A stretch of DNA of 64,000 nucleotides, taken from Roseovarius pacificus. GTDB lineage: Bacteria; Pseudomonadota; Alphaproteobacteria; Rhodobacterales; Rhodobacteraceae. Below are positions 2,702 through 41,568 of this stretch, piece by piece; position 1 is the stretch's first letter; the number at the start of each line of letters is the position of its first letter. Both the position numbers and the translations under genes were made by a program. The notes beneath the pieces were generated by a model that did no database searches, was not told where the DNA came from, and saw only the letters and a list, made by a program, of their open reading frames with translations. The stretch is taken from the NCBI RefSeq assembly GCF_900142665.1, contig NZ_FRBR01000008.1, positions 1 through 64,000 of the forward strand, in the 5' to 3' direction.

Positions 2702-3005
2702 ACGGAAGAAAGACCCGCCAAATTGCGATACCCGATCCGATTGCAGTAACACCGATTATTTCTTCGTCTCGCCGTCTTCGCCGGACGGCTTTCGCCAGTT
2801 TGAGGGGATTGGGAAAGTCTGTATGATCTGTTGCATGTTCATGCCTTGAGTGATGATGCATTTTAACGTACATCTCCTGAAAATCCAAATTATCGAATGG
2901 GCTCCGGGGGAATTGCTGGCAGAGATCATGACCACACGCGTGCTGGCCATGTTTCCTGGTGAAGCGCTTCACTTTCATTGCTCTGGAATTGGTTGCTAAC
3001 CGCAT
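2700..3005 (-). CDS. Possible small protein with a hydrophobic C-terminus
   Basis: A 101-residue frame from ATG 3005 (a TTG at 3023 could extend it). The N-terminal part is basic. The middle carries histidine- and cysteine-containing stretches (HGQHACGHDLCQQF, MHHHSRHEHATDH) that could bind metal, followed by RRRRR and a hydrophobic C-terminal stretch (IIGVTAIGSGIAIW) that could be a tail anchor. It ends inside the hairpin terminator at 2667-2701, which favours a real gene. No family is recognised and the ribosome binding site is poor. Confidence 0.35.
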   Translation of the reverse strand: MRLATNSRAMKVKRFTRKHGQHACGHDLCQQFPRSPFDNLDFQEMYVKMHHHSRHEHATDHTDFPNPLKLAKAVRRRRRDEEIIGVTAIGSGIAIWRVFLP

Positions 3006-3246
3006 GAAGCTGGTTGTCTTCAAACGTTGAGATAAAGCGCAGCGATAATCGTACGGCGACAGCAGCGCAGCCGCTCATTCGGCGCCAATGTTAGGCGCCC
3101 AGCACGCGAGTTGCACGATAGACGGGTGCCATTCTGCTGGTCAATTTCCGTTCTCGCCAAGAATTGGTGTTTCTGCTCCCCCAGAGCTCGACCCATCTGT
3201 TGGACAGGGCTTCAACCCTCGTCAGACCAACAAAACGGAAATCGCT

Positions 3247-3611: not shown

Positions 3612-3995
3612 ATGCGACCTTCGACCATTTTCGAACCTGACGCCCTTCGCCTGCTCAGTCGCAGGCGGCTGTTGCAACGCTGGCAGCACGGGAGCGACGC
3701 GTTTTTTTGGCGCGCGGAACGCGACGGGCTGCTCGTCCCGCGGCGTGACGGGCGCCGGATTGGCTATGCCGAAGCGGATGTGTTTGCGTTCGAAGGCGGT
3801 CAGCCGCCGAAGGGCTTGCTCGACGCATATCGTCTCGATTTGCTGACACCGGAGGAGGTCGCGGCGCGGTGCACGCTGAAGCGGGGAACGATCCTCGAGC
3901 GTGCCCGGCGAGGTGCGCTGCCGGGCCGGAGAATTGGCGCGGCCTGGCGCTTTGTTCCCGCCGAGGTCGCAAATTGGTTGCAGACGTGGAGCTGA
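3612..3995 (+). CDS. Excisionase-like double helix-turn-helix protein
   Basis: A 127-residue protein with AGGAGA seven bases before ATG 3612. The C-terminal half, from about residue 77, reads LLTPEEVAARCTLKRGTIL then GALPGRRIGAAWRFVPAEV. This is the pattern of MerR/excisionase-type HTH_17 domains: a helix-turn-helix, then a wing with a W-R-F-containing strand and a final helix. The N-terminal half (LLSRRRLLQRWQHGSDAF, RDGRRIGYAEADVFAFE) looks like a second, diverged copy of the same fold. Such proteins act as recombination directionality factors or repressors on mobile elements. The two tyrosine recombinases 2 kb downstream are plausible partners, but that link is inference. Confidence 0.7.
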   Translation: MRPSTIFEPDALRLLSRRRLLQRWQHGSDAFFWRAERDGLLVPRRDGRRIGYAEADVFAFEGGQPPKGLLDAYRLDLLTPEEVAARCTLKRGTILERARRGALPGRRIGAAWRFVPAEVANWLQTWS

Positions 3996-4060: not shown

Positions 4061-5086
4061 ATGTCGAAACACCCCAAGCATGTCAGTGTCGCCGAGCCGA
4101 CCCTGATCATCTCCAACGCTCTGCATGTCGGAGCGACATACCGTGTCGCGGCCGACAGGCTCAACGCCGATGGCTATTTGCCGGACGACGATTTCCGTCT
4201 TGCGCGCGATGTCCAGGATATTGATCGGCGTCTGCCGGACTTCAACGCCGCCTACCTTCGCGATTGCCATGGTCATGTCATGGCGCTCCGGGATGAACTC
4301 TCACCCCTGGGGCGATCTGAAACGCAGACTCTGACGTCGCTTCTTGCAGTTCACGGCAAGCTCGTAAATGCAGCCGGCCAGGGTCCGCTCAATCAGTTCG
4401 AAGGCCTCGGCGGTCTCGCGATCGTTGAAGAGGATATCGCCCTTTTGTTCAAAAAAACAGGCACTGAGCGCGCGGGTGCCGCTGCGCGGGCGGTGATCGC
4501 ATATGCCGCCAATGCCTGCGACACGGCCGTTCTCAGTCGCCGGCACCAGGAGTTCGACGGCCTTGCCGGCCCGGTCGCCGCGAGGTCGGGGCTGTCTTTC
4601 ACCCGGGTCGTCCACGACCTCTGGCGTCACGGGAGCATCAAGGATGACGACCCGCGGCGGAAGCTCGATCCATCCCGTGTCAAATCACATCCGCTCTTTG
4701 ACGCCCCTTCGGGGCAATTCCTGGAGGAAGCCTCCGCTTCAATGCGGGATATCATGCCCGAGTTGACCGGCGCCCGAGACCACCCGATCTGGGGACGGGC
4801 CATTATCGAGAACGATATCGGGGAGTTCCAGGCCGCGGCCGAGCAGATGCGTACTCGGACCAATTCGGGTCAGAAGGTCCAGACAAAAGTACATGCCCGG
4901 GTGATGATGGCCCTGGCAAGCATGATCGAGCGGGCCGGGCTCAATGTGTCACAATTGGCTCCGGCCTCCGGGGCCACAGCGAGCTTGTTTGCGATCTGCG
5001 CCAGCGCCTCAGCCCGAAGCCATGTCTATCAGAAGCGCGCCCGCGAGCAGGCCTCGCCGACAAGGCAATCCTCCGCACGTCATTGA
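4061..5086 (+). CDS. Unknown 341-residue island protein
   Basis: Start ATG 4061 (MSKHPKHVSVAEP) has AAGGAC about seven bases upstream. The protein is soluble and almost entirely helical, with no signal peptide and no membrane segment. The first 60 residues contain LIISNALHVGATYRVAADRL. The middle is alanine-rich (GAAARAVIAYAANACDTAVL). A region near residue 190 (FTRVVHDLWRHGSIKDDDP) and an alanine/serine-rich C-terminus complete it. I find no catalytic motif and recognise no family. It follows the double-HTH gene by 65 bases in the same direction, so the two may form one transcription unit, which ends before the hairpin array at 5384. Confidence 0.55.
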   Translation: MSKHPKHVSVAEPTLIISNALHVGATYRVAADRLNADGYLPDDDFRLARDVQDIDRRLPDFNAAYLRDCHGHVMALRDELSPLGRSETQTLTSLLAVHGKLVNAAGQGPLNQFEGLGGLAIVEEDIALLFKKTGTERAGAAARAVIAYAANACDTAVLSRRHQEFDGLAGPVAARSGLSFTRVVHDLWRHGSIKDDDPRRKLDPSRVKSHPLFDAPSGQFLEEASASMRDIMPELTGARDHPIWGRAIIENDIGEFQAAAEQMRTRTNSGQKVQTKVHARVMMALASMIERAGLNVSQLAPASGATASLFAICASASARSHVYQKRAREQASPTRQSSARH

Positions 5087-5383
5087 TCCCGGCGGACGCC
5101 GGGGCAGTGGCCACAGGCAACCGCGTCGACCGGGGCGGACATGAGGTCCTCAGATCTGTTTTCCACGAGATTGTGCACTGGCAGGACAAACGGCCATGAG
5201 AGAGAAGAGATCTCGAAAAAGAAATGCGCAAAATCAATTGCTTATAAATTTCTCGGGATTTCCAGTTCCGGAAGGGTGTCGCCGAACCCTTATTTTGAGT
5301 GTCGGCAGCAGCGAAGCGAGGCCAAGGCCTTGTTACACCGCTCCGGCGCATCCGACTGGGAGATAGGGCAACTGTCTTTCCGG
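5087..5383. other. AT-rich gap before the hairpin array
   Basis: About 300 bases without a gene. The part at 5205-5260 is clearly more AT-rich than its surroundings (GCTTATAAATTTC, then CGGGATTTCC), and a TATTTT box lies near 5291. These could provide a promoter for the rightward array that follows, but no confident -35/-10 pair can be named. Confidence 0.35.
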
Positions 5384-5411
5384 GTTTGCCGCCGAACAGG
5401 CGGCTGAGAAG
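5384..5411 (+). repeat. Hairpin repeat copy 1
   Basis: Begins GTTTGCCGCCGAACAGG and ends GCGGCTGAGAAG. The stem CCGCC/GGCGG closes the loop GAACA. Confidence 0.65.
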
Positions 5412-5490
5412 AAAATGGCGTATACCCGCACCGTTTCACGGACAGCGTGGGCAACAATGGACCGGATGTCCGGTACCGCGCGCCAAAACA

Positions 5491-5518
5491 GTTTGCCGCC
5501 GCATAGGCGGCTGAGACA
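5491..5518 (+). repeat. Hairpin repeat copy 2
   Basis: Begins GTTTGCCGCCGCATAGG and ends GCGGCTGAGACA. It differs from copy 1 in the loop (GCATA) and in the last bases. The start-to-start distance to copy 1 is 107 bases. Confidence 0.65.
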
Positions 5519-5603
5519 TCGTATGCGGTCGTGAGGCCGTGGCGGCTGGCCCGGGCAACGGGCTGGCACCGGACCGGAACGTCCGGCACGGCAAGCCAAA
5601 ACC

Positions 5604-5631
5604 CATTGCCGCCGAACAGGCGGTTCGTGTT
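5604..5631 (+). repeat. Hairpin repeat copy 3, degenerate
   Basis: The core TTGCCGCCGAACAGGCGG is identical to copy 1, but the first bases (CAT) and the 3' end (TTCGTGTT) differ. A decayed last repeat is typical of the trailing end of CRISPR arrays, but it could also mark the end of any tandem array. It starts 113 bases after copy 2. Confidence 0.6.
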
Positions 5632-5684
5632 CCAAACGTCTGGGGCACACGACCTGGAAAGATGGTCTCCTTTTGCACTTGCGG

Positions 5685-5716
5685 CCCGCAGGTCTCGTTC
5701 CTGCGGGTCTTTTTTC
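5685..5716 (+). terminator. Rho-independent terminator after the array
   Basis: CCCGCAGG at 5685-5692, a seven-base loop and CCTGCGGG at 5700-5707 are followed by TCTTTTTT. The T-run lies on the plus strand, so it ends rightward transcription. No ORF ends just upstream, so the transcript it ends is probably the hairpin array itself. Confidence 0.75.
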
Positions 5717-5862
5717 GTGTTCCGACCCGCCAATTTGAAACCGGCCCTTCGCGGAGCTTTTTCCGTCTCATGACTTCGATGAAACCCCGGAGAGCCCCAT
5801 GGAAAACCCTTCCGAAAGCCGACCTCACGGCGCGCAAATGGGTGCGTCCGCGAACCGCCCGT

Positions 5863-6029: not shown

Positions 6030-7883
6030 ATGCAAATCGAAACTCTCCAACATGTCTACCAACTGCTGCCAGATATCTACTCGGAAACCTCGCGGGACGC
6101 GTATCGCGCCGCCTTCCGGCGCGCGGAGCGCCTGACGAACAAGAAGCTCTCGCAACTTGCGGCGGACGAGCGGGCGTGGGAGCAAGAGCTCTCGAAAATC
6201 GTCTGGGCCGGCGAATTCCGCGCAAAGACTCCGGAAGCTGCCGAGCGCGCGTTCGAGACCTGGGGCGGCAAGATCCCCGCGGCGATCCGACGCGCGCGCA
6301 AACATACCGGATCGGGTCCGGCCGGCGATCGCGACGCGCAGGGCGCTTGGGACCGGATCGCGGACTATGTGTCCGACGTGGAGAACTGCTTCGACGAGAC
6401 GGGCCAGAGGATTCTGCCCAACATGTCGGGCCTGTCGATCGCAAATCTGCGCGCGCGGCTGGGGCACATGCGTCCGCAAACGGTGGACACCGAAGGTGCA
6501 ATCGAGGCACTGAGGAAGCTCCCAGCGGACAAGACGGAGAGCTATCGGAATGCCGTGCGGTTTTTCAACCGCTTGATCCGCGAACAGAACTGTCACGCGC
6601 CCATCGCGGACCTGCTGCCGAATTCACCGGTGGGGACGTTGCCCACGCGGCGCGATGCGCCGATCGACTGGTCACTCTTCTCGCAAGAGTTCCTCGACGC
6701 TCGTGACACCGCGCTGGACGAAGCGGTGGGGACCGAGGCCGACAAGAAAAGCTCCCGCGCCGCCCGGATTTCCGCGCGGCGTCAAAACAAGCGTACGCGC
6801 CGGCGGCGCGTCTTCAACCCGGACGCAACGCGGAAAAACTACGTCCGGTCGCTGTCCTGGCTTGCACGTCATGCCGAAGCAGAACGCGCGGATGTCTACG
6901 ATGTCAAAACGCTCGGTGATCTCGTCACGGAAGAACGCGTCGAAGCGGCGGTCAACCGCTTCATTGCGCGCAGCCAGTCGGACGAGGAGCTCCGCGATAC
7001 GAAACAGACGAGTTCGCTCAAAAGCTACCTGTCAGCTCTCGTGTCGCTTGTGCGCCGCAACGGAATGGACGAGGACCTGGTCTTCGCGCTCGAGGATATC
7101 GCGGATGACCCGGACTATGTCTCGGATCGTGCGGGTGAGATGTCCGCGACCCGCGAGGAGTTCATCCGTCTTGTCGATCGCGACCCGGCGATCGTGCGAG
7201 CGATCGTCGCAGGTCCGGAGACGCTCATGAAGGAGTCCCGGCGGGGTTTCGATCGCTGGGAGCGGTCGCGTGACTCTCAGCAAGCCGAAACCCTCCATCT
7301 TTCGGTCGCGTCTGCCGCGATGGCCGTGCAACTGGCGCGGCCGCTTCGGACGCGCAACGTCAACGAGTTCGACGCGGGCGGACAGGGGGCGGATCTCATC
7401 GCCCCGCGCCGCGCGGGCGCCCAGGCCTGGATCGAGATCGATCGAACGAAAGTGAAGAACCGCCGCGCGATCGAGGGCCCGGTGCCGGAGTGGCTCTGGG
7501 CGGTTCTGGAAGCCTGGCAGGACGAAGGCCGGCCGCTCTGGATCGCGCGGCACAAGAAGACCGGATGCCGCGACACCGATGCCCTCTTTCCCGGAACGCG
7601 GGGCGGCTATCTCACGCGCTCGACATTCAACAAGTGCTGGAACCGGGGCATGTCGCGCCTTGGGCTTACCGGGCTCACGCCACACATGATGCGTCACGTT
7701 GCGGCCACACTCTATCTCGCGGTGCATCCCGGCGACTATCATGTCGTCGCAGCGCTGCTCTGCGACGAGTTGAAGACCGTCGAGCAATTCTACTCTCGGG
7801 GAGAGGGACGGGCGGCCGCCGAACTCTTCGCGCAGGTGCTGGAAGACCTGCATCCCACTTTGCGCTTGCGGGGGGCCGCGTGA
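6030..7883 (+). CDS. Large tyrosine recombinase, first of a pair
   Basis: A 617-residue protein with AAGGAAAA before ATG 6030. The C-terminal catalytic domain shows the tyrosine-recombinase signature: an arginine in RPLRTRN near residue 438, a lysine-containing strand (KVKNRRAIEGPVP), HMMRHVAATLYL (the H-x-x-R box) near 552, and the likely nucleophile tyrosine in VEQFYSRG near 588. The usual second histidine (GH box) is replaced (LLCDELK), which some family members tolerate. The long N-terminal part (about 400 residues, charged and helical) far exceeds a normal SAM-like domain. The stop overlaps the start of the second recombinase by one base (TGATG), so the two are translationally coupled and may act as a heteromeric pair. 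Confidence 0.75.
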   Translation: MQIETLQHVYQLLPDIYSETSRDAYRAAFRRAERLTNKKLSQLAADERAWEQELSKIVWAGEFRAKTPEAAERAFETWGGKIPAAIRRARKHTGSGPAGDRDAQGAWDRIADYVSDVENCFDETGQRILPNMSGLSIANLRARLGHMRPQTVDTEGAIEALRKLPADKTESYRNAVRFFNRLIREQNCHAPIADLLPNSPVGTLPTRRDAPIDWSLFSQEFLDARDTALDEAVGTEADKKSSRAARISARRQNKRTRRRRVFNPDATRKNYVRSLSWLARHAEAERADVYDVKTLGDLVTEERVEAAVNRFIARSQSDEELRDTKQTSSLKSYLSALVSLVRRNGMDEDLVFALEDIADDPDYVSDRAGEMSATREEFIRLVDRDPAIVRAIVAGPETLMKESRRGFDRWERSRDSQQAETLHLSVASAAMAVQLARPLRTRNVNEFDAGGQGADLIAPRRAGAQAWIEIDRTKVKNRRAIEGPVPEWLWAVLEAWQDEGRPLWIARHKKTGCRDTDALFPGTRGGYLTRSTFNKCWNRGMSRLGLTGLTPHMMRHVAATLYLAVHPGDYHVVAALLCDELKTVEQFYSRGEGRAAAELFAQVLEDLHPTLRLRGAA

Positions 7884-9358
7884 TGCCACGCAAGCCCAAA
7901 AGCCGCGCCGCGCGCGCCGATGCGCTGCTAGTCGCAATGCCCAGTGTCCCGAGGGACGTGGCCGAACGTCTGCGCCAGGCCGCGCTCGTCAAGGATCTTG
8001 CGCCGCGGGGCATGCCCGCGGCGCTGGAGCGCTTCTTTTCCCGCCTGGCGACGGAGGGCCGCGCGCCGGAGTTCGCACAGGCAGAGGACTTTGCCGCATC
8101 GGCGCAGAGCCGGACGGTGTTCCGCACGCTCTTGACGGCGCTGTCGCGGTTCGCGCCGGAGGTGCCGACCGCGGCGGCCGTGCCGGTCAAGCGCGACTGG
8201 GACGCCTGGCTCAACGGGCGGTACAACGCCCGCACGCCGCGTCCGCGCCGCTCGCGCCGCGAAGCCCTGAGGCCCGAGGATTGGCCCGAGCCCTGGCGCG
8301 ATACCTTGGCGTGCCTCGAAAAACGCGTTCGTCGCGACGGGCGGCGGTATCGTCCCCTCGCGCCGAAAACCCGGGACGCGGTGGTCCAGGCGGTCGGTCT
8401 CCTTGCGCTTGCGCGGGAGAATGTGATCGCCGAAGGCTGTGAGCCTGGCAACGGGTTCACGCCAGAGCTCGCGGAGGCGTTTCTCGGCTTCCTCGTCGAC
8501 CGTGTAAACCCGGCAAGTGGGGAGTTCATCCGGTTCGGGACAATCGCTGATTATTTCGAGCGCGTGATGCGTCTTGCCGCCCGGGCCGAACTCTACGAGC
8601 CGGACGGTGAAGCCTCCTTCGGAGAGATCCTCGCAGCTTGCCGCGCGGAGGAGGCTGAAGAGACCCCGGCAAAGCGGGCCGCGATGCGCGCGTTCCGCGA
8701 GACGCACGGGCTTGAGGGCGTTCTCGAGGCCGCCGTCGCTGCAAGCGAGGAGGCGCGCGATCTGCCCGGGCATTCGGACAAGGCGGCCCGCCTGCGGCGC
8801 AAGGCGGTCGTCTTCGCGCTTCTTGTCAACGGTGCGGACCGGCAGGGAGATCTGTCCGAGTTCCGGATCGGGCGGGAAATCGTGCGCCGGGCGGACGGAT
8901 CCTGGGAGCCGGCGTTCCGGCAATCGAAGACGGCCCGCTGGAAAGAGAACGGTCCGCTCTGGGGGCTGACCGGTTTGCTCATCGATGCCCATGTGCTCGA
9001 GGGCCGACCGGCCTGGTGCATCGAGACCCGCATCGCGGAGCTCGATGGGTGCAATCTCCTGAGCCTGCGGCCGGAAGGCTTCGACACGTATCACGCGTCC
9101 AAGCTGCTCCGCGAGGCGTTCGAGATATCCGGGCATCTCATTCGGACAGCTGTCACCGACCTGCTGCGCCGCCATCGCCCCGATGCCGCCTGGGCCGTCC
9201 AGAGATTGCTGGGACACTCGGTCGAGTGGATGCAGGAAAGCTATCGCAGTGAGTTCGCGGAAGTTGCCAGCGTGGAGAAATACCATGCCGCTCTGGAAAT
9301 GCTTGTTCGGAAAGAAACATCTCCGGCTTCGTCGCCAAGGCGACGAAATCGCGGGTGA
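7883..9358 (+). CDS. Second tyrosine recombinase of the pair
   Basis: A 491-residue protein starting at ATG 7883 (MPRKPKSRAARAD), overlapping the stop of the first recombinase. Catalytic residues appear in order: arginine in NGADRQGDLSEF near residue 319, lysine in RQSKTARWKENGP, the H-x-x-R box HLIRTAVTDLL near 418, GH in LLGHSVEW near 443 and the tyrosine in MQESYRSEF near 453. The active site looks complete, unlike that of the first protein, which lacks the GH histidine. The sequence is not close to the first recombinase, so it is not a recent duplicate. The pair resembles multi-recombinase cassettes of mobile elements, but only two genes are present. Excision, inversion or cassette capture are possible roles, and the substrate is unknown. 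Confidence 0.75.
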   Translation: MPRKPKSRAARADALLVAMPSVPRDVAERLRQAALVKDLAPRGMPAALERFFSRLATEGRAPEFAQAEDFAASAQSRTVFRTLLTALSRFAPEVPTAAAVPVKRDWDAWLNGRYNARTPRPRRSRREALRPEDWPEPWRDTLACLEKRVRRDGRRYRPLAPKTRDAVVQAVGLLALARENVIAEGCEPGNGFTPELAEAFLGFLVDRVNPASGEFIRFGTIADYFERVMRLAARAELYEPDGEASFGEILAACRAEEAEETPAKRAAMRAFRETHGLEGVLEAAVAASEEARDLPGHSDKAARLRRKAVVFALLVNGADRQGDLSEFRIGREIVRRADGSWEPAFRQSKTARWKENGPLWGLTGLLIDAHVLEGRPAWCIETRIAELDGCNLLSLRPEGFDTYHASKLLREAFEISGHLIRTAVTDLLRRHRPDAAWAVQRLLGHSVEWMQESYRSEFAEVASVEKYHAALEMLVRKETSPASSPRRRNRG

Positions 9359-13346: not shown

Positions 13347-14327
13347 TTATGCGTGTTCGGTTTGATGGCGCAAGCGCCGGGTGAGCATGGTTTTCCGTTT
13401 GATCTCCTCTCGCTGTTTTAGGATCTGCTCTGCGCGCCCGAAGTAGACGTCGGCGGGCGTTAGGTTTCCAAGGCTCTCGTGGTAGCGTCGGCTGTTGTAA
13501 TATTCGACGAAGGCACTGATCTGGCGCTCGAGATCTCCGGGCAGGAAGTAATGCTCAAGCAGAACACGGTTCTTCATGGTCTGGTGCCAGCGCTCGATCT
13601 TGCCCTGGGTCTGCGGGTGGTAGGGCGCGCCTCGGACATGATCCATGCCCTTTTCGTTGAGGTAATCCGCCAAGTCCCCCGCGATGTAAGACGCGCCGTT
13701 GTCGCTGAGAAGTCTTGGCTTGGCGACCACGGTTGCGCAGTCACATCCCGAGGCCTCCAGCGCCAGGTCGAGCGTGGCGGTCACGTCCTCGGCCTTCATC
13801 GTCGTGCAAAGCTTCCAGGAGATGATGTAGCGGCTGTAATCGTCCAAGATGGTGCTGAGGTAGAACCAGCCCCAGCCCAGGACCTTCAGATAGGTGAAGT
13901 CGGTCTGCCACAGCTCGTTGGGGCGCGTAGTTTTGTCCCGGAACTCATTGGCCGCCTTGATCACGATATGCGCCGGTGCCGTGACCAGGTCTTCCGCCTT
14001 CAGGATTCGGTAAACCGATGATTCCGAGACAAAATACCGCTTCTCGTCGGTATATTTCACCGCCAGCTCACGGGGCGTCAGATCCTCATGTTCGAGTGCA
14101 AACTCGATAATGTCCGCCCGGCTCTCATCCGGGAGGCGGTTCCACACAGACCCCGGATGGGACGGCGTATCCTCAAGCGCGTCAAGCCCACCCTCGGACC
14201 AGCGGTCATACCAGCGGTAATAGGTCGTGCGTGGAATGCCGAGCATGGCCAGCGTCTGACGGGCGGGCAGATGCGAGGCTTCGACGGTGCGGATGATCTC
14301 CAGCTTTTCCGATGCAGGATACCTCAT
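13347..14327 (-). CDS. Transposase orfB, integrase core
   Basis: 326 residues. An N-terminal helix-turn-helix (LPARQTLAMLGIPRTTYYRWYDRW) precedes an HTH_21-like segment (ELAVKYTDEKRYFVSESSVYR) and the rve integrase core. The DDE residues are visible in WQTDFTYLKVLG, LLSDNGASY and GKIERWHQTMKN, the last followed by the conserved YNSRRYHESLGNLTP. No internal stop is present. The ATG overlaps the orfA stop (ATGA), so coupling by re-initiation is likely. Synthesis of a fusion by frameshifting is possible, but no slippery heptamer is obvious. Confidence 0.85.
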   Translation of the reverse strand: MRYPASEKLEIIRTVEASHLPARQTLAMLGIPRTTYYRWYDRWSEGGLDALEDTPSHPGSVWNRLPDESRADIIEFALEHEDLTPRELAVKYTDEKRYFVSESSVYRILKAEDLVTAPAHIVIKAANEFRDKTTRPNELWQTDFTYLKVLGWGWFYLSTILDDYSRYIISWKLCTTMKAEDVTATLDLALEASGCDCATVVAKPRLLSDNGASYIAGDLADYLNEKGMDHVRGAPYHPQTQGKIERWHQTMKNRVLLEHYFLPGDLERQISAFVEYYNSRRYHESLGNLTPADVYFGRAEQILKQREEIKRKTMLTRRLRHQTEHA

Positions 14328-41342: not shown

Positions 41343-41568
41343 GCCGCAGCGCAGCAAATCCGTCACGTCAATCATCCCCCCGTGTCACACAAGGTTGCGC
41401 TTTGCGCGCGGATTTGTATGTTGCGCCGCAGCGAACACGGAGCCGGGTGCGATCCCCGGCTGGCTCTTCCGGCCGCCGATCCGCCGGACAACCTGACACG
41501 AACCGCGCCACACCGCGCCGTACCACAGACCGCCCCGCCGGGGACGGCCAAAGGAAACGCTTTTCACC

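Follow-up and report, generated by a model that had tools for sequence, protein, structure and literature searches.

A tandem array of type I-F-like CRISPR repeats in a putative mobile element of Roseovarius pacificus: a possible multi-copy RNA anti-CRISPR

What does a repeat of the type I-F CRISPR format do at a locus where the intervals between its copies are 79 and 85 nt instead of 32 nt and where no cas gene is found? This question is raised by a short array in a stretch of 64,000 nt from Roseovarius pacificus (contig NZ_FRBR01000008.1, positions 1 to 64,000, forward strand; from here: the window). The three hairpin repeats described in the initial annotation are indeed present on the + strand, starting at 5384, 5491 and 5604:

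5384..5411, + strand: repeat 1, a full I-F-like repeat with the pentaloop GAACA and the handle-like flank CTGAGAAG
5491..5518, + strand: repeat 2, a full I-F-like repeat with the pentaloop GCATA and the flank CTGAGACA
5604..5629, + strand: repeat 3, hairpin retained and handle gone (TTCGTG), comparable to the last repeat of CRISPR arrays

The stem of repeat 1 consists of 5 bp (5389-5393/5399-5403), the start-to-start spacing is 107 and 113 nt and the three copies span 246 nt. The exact stem-loop CCGCC-GNNNA-GGCGG occurs three times on the + strand of the window, always within the array, and once on the - strand, elsewhere. When 200 sequences of 64 kb were simulated with the dinucleotide composition of the window, none had two exact stem-loops within 260 nt. 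Hence, the cluster is not due to chance.

In a cmscan search of a 441-nt stretch, copies 1 and 2 aligned to positions 1-28 of the Rfam family CRISPR-DR4 with 28.8 and 26.6 bits (E 2e-4 and 1e-3), below the curated cut-off of 35 bits, while copy 3 aligned at positions 6-22 only, corresponding to the hairpin (E 3.9). CRISPR-DR4 is presumably the type I-F repeat form, as borne out by the genuine I-F array of another alphaproteobacterium (see below). Copies 1 and 2 show the 28-nt repeat, 5-bp stem, pentaloop and CUNAGAA-like end of type I-F, although they score below the Rfam cut-off, and with an alignment over all 28 positions the likeness is stronger than first thought. The last copy, which had been described as degenerate, keeps the hairpin alone and has lost the handle. 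No match was obtained in the array region when the whole window was scanned at curated cut-offs. Other known RNA families were considered and rejected; CRISPR-DR4 was the sole plausible Rfam match and the remaining tail of eight families was weak. Elsewhere in the window, at 41436-41493 on the + strand, a sul1 RNA (RF03058, 75.6 bits) is the only Rfam match at the curated cut-off.

The array is located between an excisionase-like gene and an orphan gene on one side and a tyrosine recombinase on the other:

3612..3995, + strand: HTH_17 / excisionase-like gene, upstream of the array
4061..5086, + strand: gene of a 341-aa protein, no family match
6030..7883, + strand: tyrosine recombinase, 617 aa (Pfam above cut-off, PHROGs; weak NCBIfam matches)
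7877..9358, + strand: partner gene, 493 aa, no family match

We infer from the integrase and excisionase-like genes that the element is mobile. Two tyrosine recombinases had been proposed here; Pfam and PHROGs agree for the gene at 6030-7883, whereas its partner at 7877-9358 had no family match in Pfam, PHROGs or NCBIfam. A relative of the 341-aa protein was found in only one of 72,556 plasmid records, that of R. indicus. We considered this protein as a Cas6-like reader and dropped it, given the missing family match and a single-sequence structure model with a mean pLDDT of 38, which was useless. The window further contains a protein with a GDVVSF motif (1896-2648, + strand), look-alikes of which were seen by eye near arrays in the loci L002, L069 and L076, the last with a weak PemK match below the cut-off, and a transposase-like ORF, assigned by eye, at 13347-14327 on the - strand.

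In R. indicus, the same element is found on the plasmid pRIdsm_01, where it has two arrays. Array 1 comprises three hairpins and is flanked by the HTH gene and the 341-aa gene's relative; array 2 has two hairpins and lies between the latter gene and the recombinase. Comparison of the window array with these two arrays, all three of which have the leader block and the terminator in common, defined the following parts:

5266..5329, + strand: leader block, also conserved in the two R. indicus arrays (three-way alignment)
5412..5490, + strand: interval 1, 79 nt long, with a predicted closing stem; interval 1 of each R. indicus array is related to it
5519..5603, + strand: interval 2, 85 nt long; in R. 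indicus array 1, interval 2 is related to it
5683..5716, + strand: intrinsic terminator, hairpin 5683-5709 plus T-run, conserved with both R. indicus arrays

The interval lengths originally given are correct when the repeats are read as 28 nt, the rho-independent terminator was found, and the second palindrome, CCGGA..TCCGG followed by GCCAAAAC, is seen in both intervals. GCCA forms part of the 3′ strand of a predicted 5-bp stem, UGGYG/CGCCA, closing interval 1, and according to the prediction this closure is possible in all three arrays. On their own, the intervals folded weakly, with z = -0.98 for interval 1 and z = -1.55 for interval 2. The RNAalifold covariation term was slightly unfavourable for interval 1 (+1.67, 3 sequences only) and favourable for interval 2 (-1.75, 2 sequences only), and these terms are no proof of covariation in the intervals. 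The leader block is probably the promoter and 5′ end, lacking a sigma-70 consensus, which was sought at the array and not found. The conserved leader together with the intrinsic terminator suggests that the array yields an RNA of about 400 nt. Being structured and, position by position, related to their counterparts in the R. indicus arrays, the intervals do not look like spacers; in place of unique spacers of about 32 nt with a 60-nt period, we found a spacing of 107/113 nt and related intervals.

The window segment 5570-10618 is 87.7% identical to the R. indicus stretch holding the end of array 2 and the recombinase, while positions 5476-5623 also match array 1, at 70%, so that the window array looks recombined. 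In Roseovarius sp. A-2, similarity to the window begins at 5746, just past the terminator. Judged by this start and by the mosaic match to arrays 1 and 2, the array behaves as an exchangeable module. A blastn search of plasmids with the 401-nt array (E limit 1e-5) returned nothing besides the related R. indicus record, and the search of phages (E limit 1) yielded a single match of 28 nt, between the hairpin and a gene of a Microbacterium phage.

Similar units occur more widely in the order Rhodobacterales. The pattern of hairpin plus CTTAGAA, with up to 2 mismatches allowed, had 57 matches in 47 of 380 genomes, against 12 for the reversed pattern, as tallied from the listed matches. Inspection of 30 of these loci and of genome G275 revealed tandem arrays in G000, G344, G207, G046, G233, G014, G372 and G275; the single hairpins of G146 and G178 came with extra structure. 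In Sulfitobacter sp. OXR-159, a plasmid stretch of about 1.4 kb contains 18 hairpins. With 35.1 bits, two repeats in the array of G046 (L045) attain the Rfam cut-off for CRISPR-DR4. A second scan for pairs of hairpins, blind to the flank, pointed to 22 places in 12 of 371 genomes, with one match for the reversed-pattern control; it took hairpin gaps of 46-76 nt only and thereby did not recover the window's own array. Twelve of the 22 places belong to five array loci that were already known, and the other ten were coding sequence or another CRISPR type, by eye. In each of the five arrays at least one hairpin is followed by the CTKAGAA flank (9 of 21 hairpins in all), which argues against the flank being an artefact of the first search; the exact flank is missing in 12 of the 21. 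Within the gaps of 46-76 nt, the flank-blind scan disclosed no non-coding array wholly devoid of CTKAGAA.

The surroundings of these loci vary. L075 lies between a DNA methylase and ArdC, L069 near a MobA/MobL relaxase gene and L073 near a transposase. Only ordinary-looking genes were seen by eye around L068 and L071, and by eye the arrays of G344 and G233 lie amid ordinary-looking genes. At L074 (3400-3670, - strand), one I-F-like hairpin and two I-E-like repeats, CCCCGC-N4-GCGGGGAT, share a single intergenic stretch; by eye, a terminator-like hairpin follows the set, and the neighbours are S24 peptidase and impB/mucB/samB-family genes. These I-E-like repeats were not reported by Rfam, and in about 1 Mb of loci their core was found elsewhere only in contigs chosen for I-E repeats and once in L057. 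Similar units with irregular spacing are present on the IMG/VR contigs L048, L055/L060 and L053.

Some further observations were made on phage contigs and plasmids. On L055/L060, two I-F-like hairpins 50 nt apart precede a terminator-like hairpin, with phage-like structural genes nearby, by eye. The Moraxella lincolnii plasmid L066 has a single I-F-like repeat (1510-1531) directly before a type IV secretion gene and is a candidate for an RNA anti-CRISPR (Racr). The Shewanella baltica plasmid pSB01-1 (L067) carries a series of I-F-like hairpins with short spacing and a terminator-like end at about 2800-3170, whose stems differ in a compensating way (e.g. CCGCT/AGCGG, CACC/GGTG), all by eye. A match in an E. 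coli plasmid (L064) was a plain inverted repeat and was discarded. A literature search over titles and starts of abstracts, with preprints and most subscription papers outside its scope, found no Cas-less I-F-like arrays of Rhodobacterales among the matches listed.

Do these hairpins act as RNA or as DNA? Of the 22 distinct locus-loop types in arrays, every one fits GNRNA and 21 also fit GNRYA, a count that leaves out two L002 matches lying outside arrays; among 51 distinct control GNNNA loops outside arrays, 29 are GNRNA and 12 GNRYA (p 6e-9 for GNRYA). Array intervals folded with a median z of -1.30 (n=22 distinct of 43), compared with -0.27 for same-length controls (n=110; p 5e-4) and with 0.22 for genuine I-F intervals, which are shorter, about 45 nt (n=51; p 1.5e-5). 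The loops and the interval structure above that of controls favour RNA over DNA. The proposal of a tandem structured RNA is therefore supported, as hairpin and pentaloop recur elsewhere, at least one copy in each of the five flank-blind arrays has the CTKAGAA flank, and interval structure exceeds that of controls. An outer stem shared by the units and enclosing the hairpin was tried as well and is not general: z fell below -1.64 in only 5 of the 19 distinct units (in L069, L070, L074, L075 and L063, one in each), the median z was -0.41, and the values for the window units, 0.12 and -0.89, lend it no support.

I-F cas genes were found neither in the host nor in nine other genomes bearing arrays or hairpins. 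The Pfam model of Cas6f had no match in 390 genomes of the order or in 190 of the class, the NCBIfam model TIGR02563 none in 12 carrier genomes or records at a limit as loose as E 10, and Csy3 was absent from the matches in 61 genomes of the order and in 10 carriers; none of 36 plasmid records with Csy3 comes from this order. In the host genome (G000), Cas1, Csy3 and Cas6f were all without a match. Cas1 was found in one of the ten carriers, G146, where by eye it adjoins a Cas9-like ORF, which indicates that the resident system there is neither I-E nor I-F. The Pfam test for Cas6f is leaky: G500, an alphaproteobacterium from a different family, has a genuine Cas6f that reaches 24.8 bits where the cut-off is 25, and this genome was probably among the 190 class genomes with no Pfam match. 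G500, which the Csy3 search does find, has I-F arrays with a 60-nt period and Csy1-4 together on one contig; its array repeat has the same stem as the window hairpins and its last repeat is degenerate. At L139 of this genome (2315-7103), the I-F genes Csy1-4 include a divergent Cas6f (6282-7103) just under the Pfam cut-off. Type I-F appears to be rare or absent in the order.

Our preferred reading, which we hold tentatively and somewhat short of an even chance, is that a single RNA of about 400 nt, containing three I-F repeat mimics, is made from this locus, most likely a multi-copy RNA anti-CRISPR, i.e. a Racr-like decoy, travelling as mobile cargo. This RNA would string the three mimics between structured linkers and end at the intrinsic terminator, and its array would be exchangeable cargo of the mobile element. 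Once transcribed in a cell with a type I-F system, which the element would have to encounter, each hairpin would be bound and cut by Cas6f, which would stay on its product. Cas6f, together with Cas7f and possibly the rest of Cascade, would be tied up on RNAs unable to guide, and CRISPR activity would be inhibited. The observations that this reading joins are the repeats, their loop and flank, the terminator, the interval structure over all arrays, the other loci, the mobile context of several copies and the lack of I-F cas matches in the tested carriers. It is supported by the full-length CRISPR-DR4 match, by the score of L045, by the CTKAGAA flank and GNRYA loops, and by the genuine alphaproteobacterial I-F array of G500 with the same stem beside Csy1-4. 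Further support comes from the I-E-like repeats of L074, the positions of L075 beside ArdC and L069 near MobA/MobL, and the units on IMG/VR contigs and the Moraxella plasmid. The main obstacle is that the searches of carriers and of the sampled order found no I-F system that such an RNA could inhibit. The hairpins lacking the exact flank and the arrays of G344 and G233 among ordinary-looking genes also weaken the decoy reading, as does the handle of window copies 1 and 2, because RacrIF1 has no 5′ handle (PMC10651486). If the arrays are Racrs, L074 might be a single locus acting against two CRISPR subtypes together.

Because the hosts seem to lack I-F systems, a CRISPR-independent structured RNA of the order and its mobile elements is kept as the near rival, a possible if rather doubtful explanation in which the I-F likeness is convergence or old co-option and the hairpins are recognised by an RNA-binding protein or RNase of the host, or serve as sRNA modules. 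It agrees with the absence of I-F cas genes from carriers and sampled order, with intervals that fold better than same-length controls and genuine I-F intervals, and with the copies in ordinary-looking chromosomal surroundings (by eye), but it leaves unaccounted that stem, GNRNA loop and 3′ flank are all as in I-F repeats, that I-E-like repeats adjoin one copy and that similar units are found on IMG/VR contigs and gammaproteobacterial plasmids. In a more specific and unlikely version, Rhodobacterales and their mobile elements would carry CRISPR-repeat arrays that lack Cas, have folded linkers where spacers would be expected, and work independently of CRISPR through a putative host protein reading the I-F-type hairpin, the CRISPR repeat having become a general RNA module that at one locus is joined with I-E-type repeats. 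If the arrays are not Racrs, CRISPR-repeat hairpins would have a second life in bacteria where the matching Cas proteins were not found, read there by some other protein.

That the array is a degenerate remnant of a type I-F array with altered spacing, as the initial annotation had considered, fits the repeat form and the last copy without a handle, the last repeat of the G500 array being likewise degenerate. The intervals do not fit, being 79 and 85 nt long and related between arrays by position; moreover, no cas genes were found, the R. indicus element has two arrays, and leader and terminator are conserved. We regard this explanation as improbable.

Highly improbable is the view that the array acts as DNA, offering folded recombination sites to the adjacent tyrosine recombinase, even though it lies directly upstream of this gene in the window and in R. 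indicus. Three Thioclava plasmids, G158 and G215 have relatives of the recombinase but no hairpin array, showing only isolated near-matches of the hairpin, two of them inside the HTH gene; for G215 the check covered about 2.5 kb upstream of the recombinase, and G213 was set aside because its copy is a fragment at the end of a contig. Conversely, the array carriers G344, G207, G046, G014, G372 and G275 have no recombinase relative at E <= 1e-20, nor has the Sulfitobacter array plasmid, and in G233 a distant relative is on another contig than the array. Arrays and recombinase thus each occur without the other, and the expectation that arrays always lie upstream of recombinase homologs fails along with the recombination-site reading. 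The start of the Roseovarius sp. A-2 similarity only past the terminator and the GNRNA loops, which point to RNA, speak against it as well. Equally remote is a guide-bearing mini-array or CreTA-like antitoxin RNA using Cascade in trans, since the crRNA-like order of handle, interval and hairpin is opposed by the missing Cas1, Cas6f and Csy3 matches in the genome and by 401-nt array searches that gave only the R. indicus plasmid and the 28-nt phage match at the hairpin.

Among known systems, type I-F arrays (CRISPR-DR4) share with the window the 28-nt repeat, 5-bp stem, pentaloop, CUUAGAAA-like end and degenerate last copy, but the window intervals of 79/85 nt are related to those of other arrays, no cas genes were found and the scores are below the Rfam cut-off. 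Viral CRISPR mini-arrays resemble it in having few repeats in mobile DNA with no cas genes; they carry guide spacers, most of them against related viruses (PMC11656645), whereas no such match was found for the window intervals. CreTA modules, including the I-F CreTA of Acinetobacter, resemble it through ectopic CRISPR-like repeats that give rise to a crRNA-like RNA, but they are reported to work with the resident Cascade (PMC10097628, PMC9458426), and no I-F gene was found in the window genome.

RacrIF1 is the precedent for an I-F RNA anti-CRISPR, and the window array resembles it as an I-F repeat mimic in intergenic, putatively mobile DNA for which binding and cutting by Cas6f would be expected (PMC10651486). 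It differs by its tandem copies, three within 246 nt rather than a solitary repeat unit, by structured linkers, by handle-like flanks on copies 1 and 2, and by the lack of a matching host system in our searches (Csy3 in 0/61 genomes of the order and 0/10 carriers, Cas6f in 0/390), while 83% of the published Racr cases match the CRISPR subtype of the host. The published search clustered full matches within 100 bp as arrays and disregarded them, and candidates with a partial match of >70% in the 100-bp flanks were discarded (PMC10651486); by these two rules, copies spaced like those of the window are removed. Racrs are the closest known kind to the window array, and if the arrays are Racrs, the published catalogue omits closely spaced tandem copies by design.
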